A DNA stretch of 64,000 bases from Chloroflexota bacterium (GTDB taxonomy: Bacteria > Chloroflexota > Anaerolineae > Anaerolineales > Villigracilaceae), in the NCBI GenBank assembly GCA_016213105.1, contig JACRBN010000016.1, positions 62,001 to 126,000 on the forward strand, read 5' to 3'. Below are positions 11,187-47,678 of this stretch, one piece after another. The notes beneath the pieces were generated by a model. The model did no database searches, was not told where the DNA came from, and saw only the letters and a program-made list of their open reading frames with translations. Made by a program: the position numbers and the translations under genes. How positions within the stretch are numbered: the first letter of the stretch is position 1; each line of letters starts with the position of its first letter.

Positions 11187-11756
11187 TTATTCCTGCGGTC
11201 TGATCTTGCGCTCGTAGAACACCAGCAGGGTCGTGCCGTATTTGCGCTGATCGAACTCGACCAGGTTGAACAGTTCCATGGCCTGATATTCGCGCGGGGC
11301 GATCTGCACGATGACTTCACAGTCCACGCCCAGCCAGCCCGGGTTTTCGTCCAGCAGGCTGAGGGCCTGCGTCCACATATCCTTGTACTGCGGCGGCGCG
11401 ATGTAGACATAATCGAAGGCGCGGTCGGGCGTGCCGGTCAACAGGCCGAAGGCATCCCCGCGGCGCACCTCGGCGCGCGACTCGAAGCGGCAATGTGCCA
11501 GGTTGAATTGGATGGTCTCCACCGCCAGCCGTTCGCGGTCGCTGAAACGCACGAAGGTCGCGCCGCGGCTGAGGGCCTCGATGCCCACTGCGCCCGTGCC
11601 GCCGAACAGGTCCCACCAGGTCGAGTCGACCACGTCGCCGGCCAAAATGTTGAAGAGCGACTCCTTGGCGCGGTCGGTGATGGGACGAGTCGTATCGCCA
11701 GGCACGGACTTGAGCTTGCGTCCGCGCGCTTCACCGGAAATGACGCGTAAGGTCAT
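11187..11756 (-). CDS. rsmD: RsmD-like 16S rRNA guanine-N2 methyltransferase
   Basis: RsmD methylates G966 of 16S rRNA. The 189-residue protein matches in length and order: RVISGEARGRKLK, RPITDRAKESLFNIL, then the SAM-binding DLFGGTGAVGIEALSRGA. The catalytic motif, normally (D/N)PPY/F, reads IAPPQY here, so the acidic or amide residue is replaced by Ala. That may alter activity or shift the residue used. It overlaps the URO-D-like gene by ATGA at 11753-11756, so translation is coupled. It could act on a different base. Confidence 0.87.
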   Translation of the reverse strand: MTLRVISGEARGRKLKSVPGDTTRPITDRAKESLFNILAGDVVDSTWWDLFGGTGAVGIEALSRGATFVRFSDRERLAVETIQFNLAHCRFESRAEVRRGDAFGLLTGTPDRAFDYVYIAPPQYKDMWTQALSLLDENPGWLGVDCEVIVQIAPREYQAMELFNLVEFDQRKYGTTLLVFYERKIRPQE

Positions 11757-12754
11757 GAGTTCTCCTTGTTGCGCAAATTGCCAATCTGCGCAACTGTATT
11801 CAAGTTTCCATGCGGAGCCATGATCGGAACCACACAGCCCGTGCTGAGGATGAAGCGGCGGCCGCCCGTCTGCGCGAGGGCGTCATCAGCTTCTTGCTGA
11901 ACCTCGGCCTGGTCCCGATACACCAGCGTGTCCTGTCTCAGGCCGCCACAGCGCACGCCCTTGAAGGTCTGCTGCGCTTCAGAGAGCGCGGGCGGAGTCT
12001 CGCGGTCGTGCCAGTTGACGATCTGGAACTCGAAGGCGTTCACCAATGAAAAGTGAACGTGATGTCCGTGCAGGTGCAGCATGTTGCACCACAGGTCACC
12101 GGTCGGAGCCAGCACGCGCTGATCGAAGGGCAGGCCGAAGTGTCGATACTCGTCCAGGCTGAGTAAATGCGCCTGTCCGTGCTGAATGGCGTAGAACACG
12201 CCGTCGATGCCCGTCTGCATGGACGCTTCCACGAAGCGGCGGGTGATCTCGGCGATGGTCTCCAGTCCCTGCATCACGGCCTCGGGATACAGGCGCAGGT
12301 GGGCCAGCAGCGTATCCGCTCCCGCCAGGTTGCGCGCCTGGGCCAGCGGACTGAACACGGTCTGGAGCATGGGCGTCCCGGGGCCCAGCTCCGCGCGGAT
12401 TAAACGGAGGCAGGCCAATTGCGCGGAGAGATGCGGCGCGGAAACGGGATCCAGCGCGGGCAGGGATTCCCAGTCGCGCGGATCGTGGATCACGCGCCGC
12501 GTGTAGGTGCGCGTCCCCTCGGGGTTGCCTTGCCATTCATCCTCCACGCCCCAATCGCGCAGGCAGAAGGAGGAGGAAGGCGTGACCTTGACGAGGTCGA
12601 AATCATAGGTGCGCTGAAAATTCAGCGTGGATGCGGCCAGGCCTTCGGGGGTCTGGTCTTCGACGGGGAAATGCCGCCACAAGGCAACGGGTGGACGGTC
12701 GGGCTGTTCGCCCTGGATGCAGGTTTGGATTCGTTCGCGGTGTGTGATCATCAT
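11753..12754 (-). CDS. Uroporphyrinogen decarboxylase family protein
   Basis: Protein of 333 residues starting MMITHRERIQTCIQGEQPDR, a typical opening for the URO-D/methylcobamide methyltransferase superfamily. It continues with PPVALWRHFP, LVKVTPSS and VNWHDRET, and a late GGLRQ segment. It lacks the canonical R-PvW-MRQAGR heme-pathway motif, so it is more likely a MtaA/CmuA-like or unassigned member than HemE. ATG 12754 overlaps the stop of the preceding glycosyltransferase as ATGA. The last residues (AQIGNLRNKENS) are encoded by a palindromic repeat at 11768-11794, which seems to have replaced or extended the natural C-terminus. Confidence 0.8.
   Translation of the reverse strand: MMITHRERIQTCIQGEQPDRPPVALWRHFPVEDQTPEGLAASTLNFQRTYDFDLVKVTPSSSFCLRDWGVEDEWQGNPEGTRTYTRRVIHDPRDWESLPALDPVSAPHLSAQLACLRLIRAELGPGTPMLQTVFSPLAQARNLAGADTLLAHLRLYPEAVMQGLETIAEITRRFVEASMQTGIDGVFYAIQHGQAHLLSLDEYRHFGLPFDQRVLAPTGDLWCNMLHLHGHHVHFSLVNAFEFQIVNWHDRETPPALSEAQQTFKGVRCGGLRQDTLVYRDQAEVQQEADDALAQTGGRRFILSTGCVVPIMAPHGNLNTVAQIGNLRNKENS
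11768..11794. repeat. In-frame palindromic repeat at the end of the URO-D-like gene
   Basis: Arms GTTGCGCAAATT and AATCTGCGCAAC (one mismatch) flank GCC. Read with the gene it encodes VAQIGNLRN. The core is shared with the repeat inside murE at 47370-47396. Confidence 0.72.
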
Positions 12755-14325
12755 GGGTAGGGTCGGATGGCACAAAAGATGGCGCCCTGGCGCTGGATCA
12801 GGATCGCTTCGGGGTCGGTGCGGACTTTGCGAATGCCCGGGTCGGCGCGCGAGGTCTGGAGCATATAATCGCCCGCCCGGGCCTGCACTGTGGCTTGGCG
12901 GCTCATATCGATCACCTCCACGCCCCCCCTGGCATAGTAGGCGGCGATATAGCCTTCGCGATTGACGAACACCCGCTGGCCGTCCTGCGCGTTTTGATTG
13001 ACCCATCCCATGGCATCCTTGTAACAGGTCAGCCAGTAATCGGTCTCATAACGGTAGGCGGCTCCGTGGGTGCTGCCCGCATATAGATTGTAATAGGTAT
13101 ATTGATATGGATGCAGGCGTATATTTGCGAACAGGGCAGGCCCCAGCAGCAGCAGGACCAGCAACCCGCGCAGCCAGGTAAACCTCGACCAGCGCAGGAG
13201 CGCCTCGGCACCCAGGCCGGCGAACACGAAAAGCGGCGGGACGATGAACAGAAAATGGCGGAAGCCGTCGTACATCGGCGGGCGCATCCACAACACATAG
13301 ACCATTGGCACCGCCAGCCACAGGAAGGTGACCAGCAGACTCTTCCACTCGAGGTCGCGTTTGCGCGCCCGCCGCACGGCCACGATCCCGCCCAGCAAGG
13401 CTAGCGGCCAGACGAACTCTGTCAGCGTGAGCAGCATCATCGTCGGCAGGTAACGGGCGGGCAATTGATCCGCACGATACAGGTCACCATTGAAGAGTAC
13501 CCGCAGGGTGGTCGGATTGTCGGCCATGAAGGTCAGCGTGCCAATGAAGTTCTGGATGGGATTCTGCCACAGATATGGCCACGAGACATACATGGCAAGC
13601 AGCGCGATCAGCCCATACGGGATGAACCAGGCGATGCGCTTGGGTTTCTTCAGCAGAAGAAAATACAGGCCGACAAGCACCGCGACCAACGGTCCCAGGA
13701 TGCGGATGCTGGTGGTCAATCCCAGCAGAACCCCGGGCAGAATGACATGTTTGAAAGTCTGGAGGGGCTTTTCTTCGGCGGGGGCATCCGCAAGCCGGTC
13801 GGCCATGCGCAGACCAAATTCCAGCGAGACCAGGAAGAAGAGCAAAAAGGACGGGTCCTTCGGGTTGATAAAGGCGTGCTCCCAGATCACAGGCTGGGTA
13901 CTGAAGAAGGCGGTGGCGAACAATGCCGCCCAGTTCCCCGTCCAGCGGCGGGCCAGAATATAGAAGAAATATACCGCCACCTGAAAGGCCAGGAAATTGA
14001 CCAAGTGCCAGGCCGAGGCCTGATCCACGCCCAGGGACTGGAGCAGGTGGGCAGGACCGCGGGTAAAAAGCAGGTAGGCGGGGCCGCGGTTGGCGTGATC
14101 CCACGGACTGGGGCCGTAGGCATTGGCCTCCAGGTCGAAATCCCCGCCGAACCAGTTGACAGGATTATAGGCATACCCAATGGCGTCCGCATATCCGTAA
14201 AACAGCGGCTCGTCAATCGAATATCCATAATCGCGGAAGGTGCGCAGGCCAAAGTAAATATTGACCAGGATCAGCAACAGCACGGGCAGGGTTTTGAAGC
14301 GTCGAAACAGGGTGGATGGGTTCAT
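12751..14325 (-). CDS. GT39-type membrane glycosyltransferase
   Basis: Integral membrane protein of 524 residues from ATG 14325 with about ten hydrophobic helices. The N-terminal loop contains the acidic motif YSIDEPLFYGY, as in dolichyl- or polyprenyl-phosphate sugar transferases (PMT/ArnT superfamily). Further on, HAFINPKDPSFLLF and MRPPMYDGFRHFLF are typical loop motifs. It probably moves a sugar from a lipid carrier to a protein or polysaccharide outside the membrane. A longer frame to 14487 would overlap the divergent MBOAT gene and pass through the -10 box, so it is rejected. It is coupled to the URO-D-like gene downstream. Confidence 0.87.
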   Translation of the reverse strand: MNPSTLFRRFKTLPVLLLILVNIYFGLRTFRDYGYSIDEPLFYGYADAIGYAYNPVNWFGGDFDLEANAYGPSPWDHANRGPAYLLFTRGPAHLLQSLGVDQASAWHLVNFLAFQVAVYFFYILARRWTGNWAALFATAFFSTQPVIWEHAFINPKDPSFLLFFLVSLEFGLRMADRLADAPAEEKPLQTFKHVILPGVLLGLTTSIRILGPLVAVLVGLYFLLLKKPKRIAWFIPYGLIALLAMYVSWPYLWQNPIQNFIGTLTFMADNPTTLRVLFNGDLYRADQLPARYLPTMMLLTLTEFVWPLALLGGIVAVRRARKRDLEWKSLLVTFLWLAVPMVYVLWMRPPMYDGFRHFLFIVPPLFVFAGLGAEALLRWSRFTWLRGLLVLLLLGPALFANIRLHPYQYTYYNLYAGSTHGAAYRYETDYWLTCYKDAMGWVNQNAQDGQRVFVNREGYIAAYYARGGVEVIDMSRQATVQARAGDYMLQTSRADPGIRKVRTDPEAILIQRQGAIFCAIRPYP

Positions 14326-45565: not shown

Positions 45566-46023
45566 GGCTTGCCTCCAAACAATTCCGCGATCTTAACGGC
45601 GCGATACTTGAAAATACCTTCCAACCTGGCGCGGATCCAAAGCGCGTTGACGGCATCGCCCAGCACGCCAAACGGCGCAGCGTAAGTCACCTGGTCGGTC
45701 ATGGTCACGCCGCCCGCCGCAGGGACAAAGCGGTGCTCGTGGTACCAAAAGCGATACGGCCCCACGCGCTGTTCGTCCACAAAATACTCACCCTCCCTGA
45801 CGTGAGCGATCTCGGTCAACCACAGGGAGCGCAGTCCGCGCACAAACTCCACGCGATACTCGATGATCTGGCCCTCGTACATCGCTTTGTCGCCGCCTGC
45901 CACGATCTCGAAATTCATATCGGGCGGCGTGATCTCGTTCAGATTCTTCGGGTCGGCAAAATACGCCCATACCCTTTCCAGCGGTGCGGGAATGAATTGC
46001 CCGCTTCGCAAATAGTGGATCAT
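45562..46023 (-). CDS. SRPBCC/START-like ligand-binding protein
   Basis: 153 residues. MIHYLRSGQFIPAPLERVWAYF, then DPKNLNEITPPDMNFEIV and VTMTDQVTYAAPFGVLGDAVNALWIRARLEGIF are typical of the cyclase/dehydrase-like SRPBCC family often found as small cell-division or lipid-binding proteins. It starts within the murE stop (ATGA, 46020-46023). The ligand is unknown. Confidence 0.88.
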   Translation of the reverse strand: MIHYLRSGQFIPAPLERVWAYFADPKNLNEITPPDMNFEIVAGGDKAMYEGQIIEYRVEFVRGLRSLWLTEIAHVREGEYFVDEQRVGPYRFWYHEHRFVPAAGGVTMTDQVTYAAPFGVLGDAVNALWIRARLEGIFKYRAVKIAELFGGKP

Positions 46024-47621
46024 CCCTTCAGCCACTCCGCTTCGGGTCGATCCTGCGAGGGCAGGTAGGGCATCCGCGGCCCCTCCACACCCAGCAGCTC
46101 GGACAACGCCGCGCGCATCGCCGTGCGATCATCCCACAGGAATTCGGTCTTCCCGAAGCACATGGATTGTTCGTGGCCCTTGCCGCAGGCGAGGACGATG
46201 TCACCTGGGCGCGCCAACCTGAGCGCAAAGCGGATGGCTTCGCCCCGGTCTGCGACCCGCCAAAAAGTCTCCCCCTCCACCCCGCCCCTGGACTCGGCGC
46301 CTGCCGCCATCTCGACGAGGATCCCGTCGAGGGACTCGCTGCGCGGGTCCTCGGCGGTCAGCACGGTCAGGTCGGCCAACTCGGCGGAAGTCTCGGCCAT
46401 CATGCGGCGCTTCTCGCGGTCGCGCAGTCCCGCCGAGCCGAAGACGGAAATCACGCGGCCCGTTGTCATCGGGCGGGCGGCCTCCAGCGCAACCTTCAAG
46501 GCGTTGGGCGTGTGGGCAAAGTCCACGATGGCGGTGAAATCCTGGCCCAGGTCGATGCGCTCCATGCGGCCAGGAACACCCTCCAGCGCGGCGAGGCCCT
46601 GCGCGGCCACCTCGGGCGCGATGCCCAGTCCAACCACAGCAACGGTAAACGCGGCCAGACAATTGGAAACGTTGAATGCGCCCACCAGCTTGCTAGAAAT
46701 GACTACGCGAAATTCACTGGAGGCCGCCGTAAAGTGAATCCCGGTCGGATCATAGACAACCTGCTCCGCGCGGATATCGGCTCCCTGCGCCAAGCCGTAG
46801 CTGACCTGGCGTGTGAACGGCTGGTCTTGAACGGTGGCCGCCAAAAAGTCGTAGGAGCGGTCATCGCGGTTGAGCACCGCCAGGCGCGGATTGCCCTGCG
46901 GCTTGGGCAGGGTGCGCTCCAGGCTTTGGAAGAGTCTGGCCTTGGCAGCGCGATAATTCTCGTAGGAACCATGCTGATCGAGATGCTCGTGCGTAATGTT
47001 GGTGACCACGCCGATGTCGAACTCGCAGGCATCCACGCGGAATTGCGCCCAGCCATGCGAGGTGGTTTCGAGCACCACATGGGTCAGGCCAGCCTCGACC
47101 ATGCGCGCGAGGTAACGCTGCACGTCGGGCGCATCCGGCGTGGTAACGTGGAAGCCCGTGTCGAGCGTCTCGTCGCCGATAACCGCGTTGACCGTGGAGA
47201 TCATGCCCGCCTTGAGTCCCGCCGCAACCAGGATGCGGTACAGCAGGTTGCTGGTGGTGGTCTTGCCGTCCGTGCCCGTCACGCCGACCACCGTCAGCTT
47301 GCGGCCGGGCCAGTCGTAAAAGGCGGCCGCCAGCCAGGTCAGGGACTGGCGGGCATTCTCGACCTGGATGTAGGGCAAATTGCCAATTTGCCCCACCTGT
47401 CCTACAGCCTTCTCCCCCACCACGGCAACGGCTCCGTTCGCGATGGCCTTTGGAATGTAGTCGTGACCGTCGGTCATGCCGCCGCGCATGGCCACGAAGA
47501 GGTCGCCAGGCTTCACGGCGCGGCTGTCGAGCGTGATGCCCGTGACGGGTCGCTCCAGGTTGCCGCTGGCCGAATACGGAAAGGGAAATTGGGAGAGGAG
47601 GGTTCGCAGTGTAATGGTCAT
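46020..47621 (-). CDS. murE: MurE-type UDP-MurNAc-tripeptide ligase
   Basis: Adds the third amino acid to the cell-wall precursor. 533 residues from ATG 47621. Present: LDSRAVKPGDLFVAMRG, ATP-binding GVTGTDGKTTTSNLL, ETTSHGWAQFRVDACEFD, NITHEHLDQHGSYENY and VDFAHTPNALKVALEAAR. The position that is DNPR in diaminopimelate-adding enzymes reads EDPRSES, so the amino acid used is uncertain. Residues VGQVGQIGNLPY near 80-90 are encoded by a palindromic repeat (47370-47396) and look like an in-frame insertion. It heads a coupled unit with SRPBCC and GNAT genes. Confidence 0.93.
   Translation of the reverse strand: MTITLRTLLSQFPFPYSASGNLERPVTGITLDSRAVKPGDLFVAMRGGMTDGHDYIPKAIANGAVAVVGEKAVGQVGQIGNLPYIQVENARQSLTWLAAAFYDWPGRKLTVVGVTGTDGKTTTSNLLYRILVAAGLKAGMISTVNAVIGDETLDTGFHVTTPDAPDVQRYLARMVEAGLTHVVLETTSHGWAQFRVDACEFDIGVVTNITHEHLDQHGSYENYRAAKARLFQSLERTLPKPQGNPRLAVLNRDDRSYDFLAATVQDQPFTRQVSYGLAQGADIRAEQVVYDPTGIHFTAASSEFRVVISSKLVGAFNVSNCLAAFTVAVVGLGIAPEVAAQGLAALEGVPGRMERIDLGQDFTAIVDFAHTPNALKVALEAARPMTTGRVISVFGSAGLRDREKRRMMAETSAELADLTVLTAEDPRSESLDGILVEMAAGAESRGGVEGETFWRVADRGEAIRFALRLARPGDIVLACGKGHEQSMCFGKTEFLWDDRTAMRAALSELLGVEGPRMPYLPSQDRPEAEWLKG
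47370..47396. repeat. In-frame palindromic repeat within murE
   Basis: GGGCAAATT-GCC-AATTTGCCC, perfect 9-bp arms with two further outer pairs. Read with murE it encodes VGQIGNLPY. The core is shared with the repeat ending the URO-D-like gene at 11768-11794. Confidence 0.75.
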
Positions 47622-47678
47622 GGCTGAATAACAATTCACAGTTGGAGTGCAGACTTCAGTCTGCGCTTCGAGTTAATC

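Follow-up and report, generated by a model that had tools for sequence, protein, structure and literature searches.

The closest described elements are the GTAG REPs, short palindromes ending in GTAG that occur in single and dimer forms, lie mostly between genes and provide TAG stop codons with their ends (Di Nocera et al. 2013, PMC3733652). In the available parts of that account, some copies are intragenic, many in genes for replication and repair, and in recB of two Xanthomonas species the repeat occupies about the same site. RAYT genes flanked by the repeats form REPtrons, Chloroflexi are among the reported phyla, and RPE-4 and RPE-6 are counted with the CGTC repeats, which lack association with a transposase. 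Because intragenic copies, Chloroflexi, the supply of TAG and REPtrons all appear in those parts, the kind of element described below is already known.

We analyzed a palindrome inside murE in a 64,000-nucleotide stretch of an Anaerolineales genome (the window). The nearest known kind of this element is the intragenic GTAG-tagged REP, though it behaves like the Rickettsia palindromic elements. As with the GTAG REPs, its family is a many-copy short palindrome, mostly intergenic (53 of 69 classified copies), with stops supplied by 12 of 42 single copies. The GTAG of the GTAG REPs, however, is unpaired and stands at one end, whereas that of the murE family pairs with CTAC at the opposite end, making the two ends alike. 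A RAYT gene flanked by repeats was seen here for a sister 27-bp family but not, at six Y1 loci, for the CAAATTG family to which the murE copy belongs. Occupation of one loop across genera by different stem types, with replacement of residues, was found here and is not part of the available text of PMC3733652. About 26 classified copies in the host genome hold two palindromes, like a REPIN; none of the six Y1 genes was found flanked by this compound form.

Like the Rickettsia palindromic elements, the palindromes studied here sit in frame within conserved genes. They differ in taking the place of residues in MurE and RsmI, in lying mostly between genes (among the copies classified) and in the GTAG/CTAC ends of the murE family. 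As for added peptide, the change is +4 to +6 residues in MutY, PheT and a TPR protein, 0 in RsmI and, relative to the common length, −1 to +4 in MurE. The first-pass annotation had proposed a Chloroflexota counterpart of the Rickettsia elements. The in-frame position in conserved genes agrees with that proposal, but the nearest kind is the GTAG REPs with their RAYT genes, already reported in Chloroflexi and inside genes. A literature search, conducted mostly without full texts, returned no description of the Anaerolineales family and none of MurE loops being occupied repeatedly.

The murE copy and its dispersed family

Read directly from the window, the murE palindrome (GTAGGGCAAATTGCCAATTTGCCCCAC) spans 27 nt in frame, with a perfect part, GGGCAAATTG-C-CAATTTGCCC, and pairing at 12 of 13 positions over its whole length (Table 1). 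It codes for (V)GQIGNLPY, as the first-pass annotation had read it, inside the peptide AVGQVGQIGNLPYIQVEN. The gene was identified from its relatives and from solved structures; the MurE of the congener (G001) is 86% identical, and solved MurE chains align across the element stretch with no large gaps. Residues 73–84 form a predicted short helix and loop between strands 66–69 and 84–87, in the N-terminal part of the protein, according to an AlphaFold model of the MurE encoded in the window (mean pLDDT 87.7; 15 sequences).

Table 1. Positions of the two palindrome copies in the window and of the reading frames that contain them.
Feature	Position	Strand	Basis
Second copy, GTTGCGCAAATTGCCAATCTGCGCAAC, coding VAQIGNLRN	11768..11794		Mismatch search of the window
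ORF with URO-D domain, C terminus formed by the second copy	11756..13006	-	Pfam
murE reading frame with the element	46020..47639	-	ORF, relatives, structures
27-nt palindromic REP-type element in murE	47370..47396		Perfect core 47373-47393; repeat counts and shuffles
Segment coding VGQVGQIGNLPY: the element, extended on the 5′ side by another half unit (GTAGGACAG)	47370..47405	-	Sequence

The murE palindrome is a member of a REP-type family in this Anaerolineales (Chloroflexota) genome. With up to two mismatches, its 15-nt core, CAAATTGNCAATTTG, has 127 matches in the host genome (G000; 5.39 Mb, 28 contigs), against 7 for a reversed control, so the core is repeated genome-wide, as the proposal in the first-pass annotation requires. 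The 27-nt form, searched with up to three mismatches, gave 74 matches against 0 for the control. It was present in 20 of the 61 genomes searched, the host included (51 copies in G007, 23 in G039 and 18 in G034), while controls were zero in all 61; the same search found none in the congener. Other genomes carry compensated stem variants, for example GCGAATTG/CAATTCGC in G039, and since changes in the stem are compensated, the hairpin looks like the conserved entity. MurE relatives in named records come from Anaerolineales or Chloroflexi MAGs. That the window belongs to one draft assembly might suggest a chance palindrome or an assembly artefact, but the control counts refute this for the family, and public MAGs from other groups have similar palindromes in the same MurE loop, which leaves the idea a negligible probability.

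Within the window, a 19-nt core with up to three mismatches matched twice, compared with a mean of 0.07 over 100 shuffles, none of which held two matches. The second copy has diverged from the murE copy and closes the URO-D ORF, bearing out an earlier remark that a related palindrome ends a URO-D-like gene. At this site, the congener already has an element-like sequence (VAQFG).

We classified 69 copies with at most one mismatch, all from 71 loci fetched around the listed places. Bare single palindromes account for 42 and are thus abundant beside the 27 scored as compound; one of the latter (L093) is really two closely spaced copies within an SdhA-like gene, leaving about 26 that are truly compound. 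The consensus of the compound form (23 aligned rows) reads CTAGTACC...GTTGTAGCGCAATTTGCTAAATTGCGCCTGGCAAATTGGCAATTTGCCCTACA...GATACTAG, a REPIN-like double palindrome.

Copies inside genes and on stop codons

A codon model placed 53 of the classified copies outside ORFs and 16 inside. It had been trained partly on MurE, MutS, PheT, SdhA-like, MutY, RsmI, GH4 and other genes, for which its in-ORF calls are therefore not independent, and Pfam and relatives carry those genes. Nine of the 16 copies lie in recognized genes: MurE, MutS, PheT, MutY, RsmI, SdhA-like (two copies), a TPR protein and GH4, all assigned by Pfam except MurE. A tenth genic copy is the C terminus of the URO-D ORF (Pfam), although the codon model counted it among the 53. 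The other seven (L006, L009, L064, L066, the second copy of L073, L087 and L089) are doubtful, being near N termini or in low-scoring ORFs; the GNAT copies in L064 and L089, for instance, are no more than about 13 residues away from the first start codon.

All ten genic copies are read in one frame, as xQI(G/A/D/S)NL. Pfam matched 11 of 27 candidate ORFs; VxQI is the reading in every one of the 11, three being doubtful, with the copy close to the N terminus. As host genes, the ORFs of the other open frame (ANWQFAL or ANCQFAL) were rejected, Pfam having matched none of the seven tested from 15 listed. The third frame contains the TAG of GTAG. The first-pass annotation had envisaged a mobile protein-coding repeat: this stands for the in-frame copies in conserved genes but not for the family, which is not mainly coding, with over three-quarters of its classified copies outside ORFs and 7 of the remaining 16 doubtful.

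Several genic candidates were set aside or qualified on comparison with relatives. A copy at the N terminus of an acyl-CoA dehydrogenase was rejected as coding on account of stops in the aligned upstream part of G001. The GH4 copy was rejected as an insertion, as G001, G008 and G009 share GQI(A/S)NLP with no difference in length, and the motif is native. For the SdhA-like gene, those three genomes gave only weak matches (28–29% identity), so the putative insertion there is placed by Pfam boundaries alone.

Twelve of the 42 bare copies supply the stop of a neighboring gene by position, at 13 gene ends, one of which (L056) has the codon TAA. Comparison of 7 of the 12 with G001 found the stop at the same codon in six (L003, L056, L064, L066, L070 and L078) and one codon later in L054; in five of the six same-codon cases, the native stop is preceded by G (GTAA or GTAG). 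The intergenic copy in L077, which has an extra G, ends its gene at a stop that does not match the congener’s, with a net insertion of ∼25 nt. The search for G001 counterparts scored 150 of 275 candidates, with repeated S-layer-like matches dominant, and among those 150 the pieces from L005, L053, L058 and L073 had no good match. As a separate observation, two convergent genes at L056:1501 stop on opposite ends of one copy, the palindrome filling the gap between the stops.

The same loops in related genomes

We aligned 102 distinct MurE genes from 115 loci. At the position of the element, the peptide is missing from the congener and from most relatives, and in this respect the insertion proposed in the first-pass annotation holds; what does not hold is a loop nine residues longer. 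The loop has 14–19 residues where the element is present, 14–17 in eight look-alikes and 15 in 69 of 83 genes with neither (one truncated row dropped), a change of −1 to +4 from the common length. For the window MurE, it is one residue longer than in the congener and four longer than the common length, which rules out a clean nine-codon insertion.

A clear element, a class that we assigned on palindrome plus peptide, is present in 10 of the 102 genes (G000, G039, L236, L238, L241, L253, L288, L289, L295 and L296). On a quick LG+G4 tree, built with the columns of both variable loops left out, these ten cases require at least 8 changes, and 11 with the look-alikes added, gain and loss not being told apart. 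Stem sequences of the MurE palindromes differ between lineages and genera, and the G039 copy differs from the commonest stem type of its own genome among the matches listed. Eighty MurE loci contained 17 strong palindromes. Six fall in the element loop, two of them (L232 and L256) without the family peptide; another six fall near codon 380, in a second loop, and the remaining five lie in neither loop. In L221, the murE locus of G052, sister of G039, a CCCTCTCCC-type palindrome occupies the loop where G039 has GQIANLSY.

The second loop is variable in its own right. In 67 of the 102 genes it has 8 residues; the remaining 35, with L239, L251, L259, L267, L272 and L301 among them, have between 4 and 35 more. 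Fifteen of the longer ones match a loose in-frame CCCTCTCCC...GGGAGAGGG pattern (NPSPxGRGxGV), and some others resemble AKNAKNAK...LRELRGS repeats.

The RsmI segment is palindromic and element-like in G000, G001, G009 and G041, and less perfectly so in G015 and G007 (6 of 24 rows), with no difference in length over the 24 rows. Each genome has its own stem or arm, G000 reading GCGCAAATTGCCAATTTGCGC and G001 GGCAGGTTGGCAACCTGCC. A search through 121,668 bases of G001, in 36 overlapping loci, turned up two GTRG...CYAC palindromes, and both differ in stem type from the one in its RsmI (CAGGTTG). At a position where P is found in 17 of 24 rows, the G000 segment has R, which fits the genome’s GCGC sub-type and not a conserved local arm. 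An alternative account needs no mobile element: coding sequence for G-Q-I-x-N-L-P, being nearly self-complementary, would be perfected on the spot by template switching. The unchanged length of RsmI, the single CAGGTTG-type copy in the fetched G001 loci, the GH4 motif shared by four genomes and the partial resemblance of the congener’s URO-D and MutS sites to the element all fit such local correction. It would not, however, account for the dozens of intergenic copies that have the same sequence and GTAG/CTAC ends, nor would it put R into the G000 RsmI from a conserved local arm, and we regard it as improbable. Given the congener’s MutS and URO-D sites, part of the set may nevertheless consist of native quasi-palindromes made perfect.

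In MutS, the copy occurs only in G000 among 24 rows (one a paralogue), at the same length as in the congener, whose site already reads IGQNSALP. The mutS of G003 (L109) has a tandem expansion of NIELSNIELSNTELSNTELS at the linker where that of G000 has the palindrome. Element-like peptides were found in MutY of G000, G008 and G005 (3 of the 22 rows with the site), where they add 4 residues relative to the congener, which lacks the peptide, and to most others; the DNA of G008 and G005 is weakly palindromic. PheT, judged mainly from the protein alignment, has such peptides in G000, G003, G005, G007 and G015 (5 of 23 genomes, twice in G015), 5 residues longer, while the congener has a RAGGK-like sequence at the site. 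The TPR protein copy adds 6 residues. Given these gains of +4, +5 and +6, replacement is not general.

A small repeat thus seems to rewrite the same segments of conserved proteins again and again. An older origin would have the element entering murE, rsmI and pheT early in the order; most lineages would since have lost it or let it decay, and local conversion would maintain the palindromes of the rest. Degraded look-alikes (VGRASSPAYIG and the like) do stand near clear copies on the MurE tree, and RsmI look-alikes are spread across families. Against this are the number of changes that the clear MurE copies require, the different stem sequences of the lineages, the lack of such a peptide in the congener’s MurE and the sister pair G039/G052 with its two unrelated palindromes in one loop; we consider ancestral insertion followed by drift unlikely, if slightly less so than local correction. 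About ten MurE genes and the smaller RsmI, PheT and MutY series make up a natural series of one loop rewritten by related palindromes. With it, one can test how REP elements select their sites and get into them, and whether protein sequence truly arises from short mobile repeats. The series also urges caution: VGQIGNLPY-like peptides in Chloroflexota proteins may be derived from repeats rather than being functional motifs.

Origin of the copies and transposase genes

Our preferred reading, to which we give a probability of about 0.7, is that the murE sequence is a copy of a dispersed 27-bp GTAG...CTAC REP-type palindrome, probably moved by a RAYT, that survives where it does little harm and in murE and rsmI replaces native loop residues. 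Movement, now or formerly, would probably have depended on a RAYT-type single-strand transposase with the hairpin as its substrate, and copies would persist where harm is small: between genes, on stop codons and in loops that tolerate them. GTAG would supply TAG when a copy sits exactly on a stop codon, and inside genes only the VGQI(G/A)NLPY frame would persist. In murE and rsmI, the copies would have taken the place of native loop residues, anchored perhaps by short matches between their ends and native sequence (GTA or GGG at one end, CCCTAC at the other). The exchange would have come about either in the course of replication-coupled insertion or through template switching. A stronger form of this proposal is tentative and, in our judgment, rather less likely to be right than wrong: the mini-element would home in a codon-phase-bound manner, replacing native sequences that match its ends (GTAR, CCCTAC), and the same essential-gene loops and native stops would for that reason be hit again, with stem types swapping across the order.

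Transposase genes of the appropriate kind are present. Six Y1_Tnp matches were found in G000, five of them over the Pfam cut-off, and four of five short Y1 ORFs pass the NCBIfam cut-off for REP-associated tyrosine transposase (L225 scores 70.8 against 80); we count five RAYT-like transposase genes in the genome. Neither the CAAATTG family nor its compound form was seen to flank any of the six Y1 loci. L225 and L226 each hold a RAYT-like gene between copies of its own unrelated palindrome. At L223:1386-2102, a RAYT gene is flanked on both sides by the sister 27-bp GTAG palindrome (GTAGGGCGAGATAGTATCTCGCCCTAC and GTAGAGCGAGATACTATCTCGCTCTAC), constituting a REPtron. This sister family, GTAGNGCGAGATANTATCTCGCNCTAC, has 34 copies in the genome versus 0 for the control; one lies in frame in a 341-aa ORF, where it reads VGRDNISPY, and another ends mutY. 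At that gene (L090:1160-1186), one palindrome family sits inside the coding sequence, and the stop codon comes from another.
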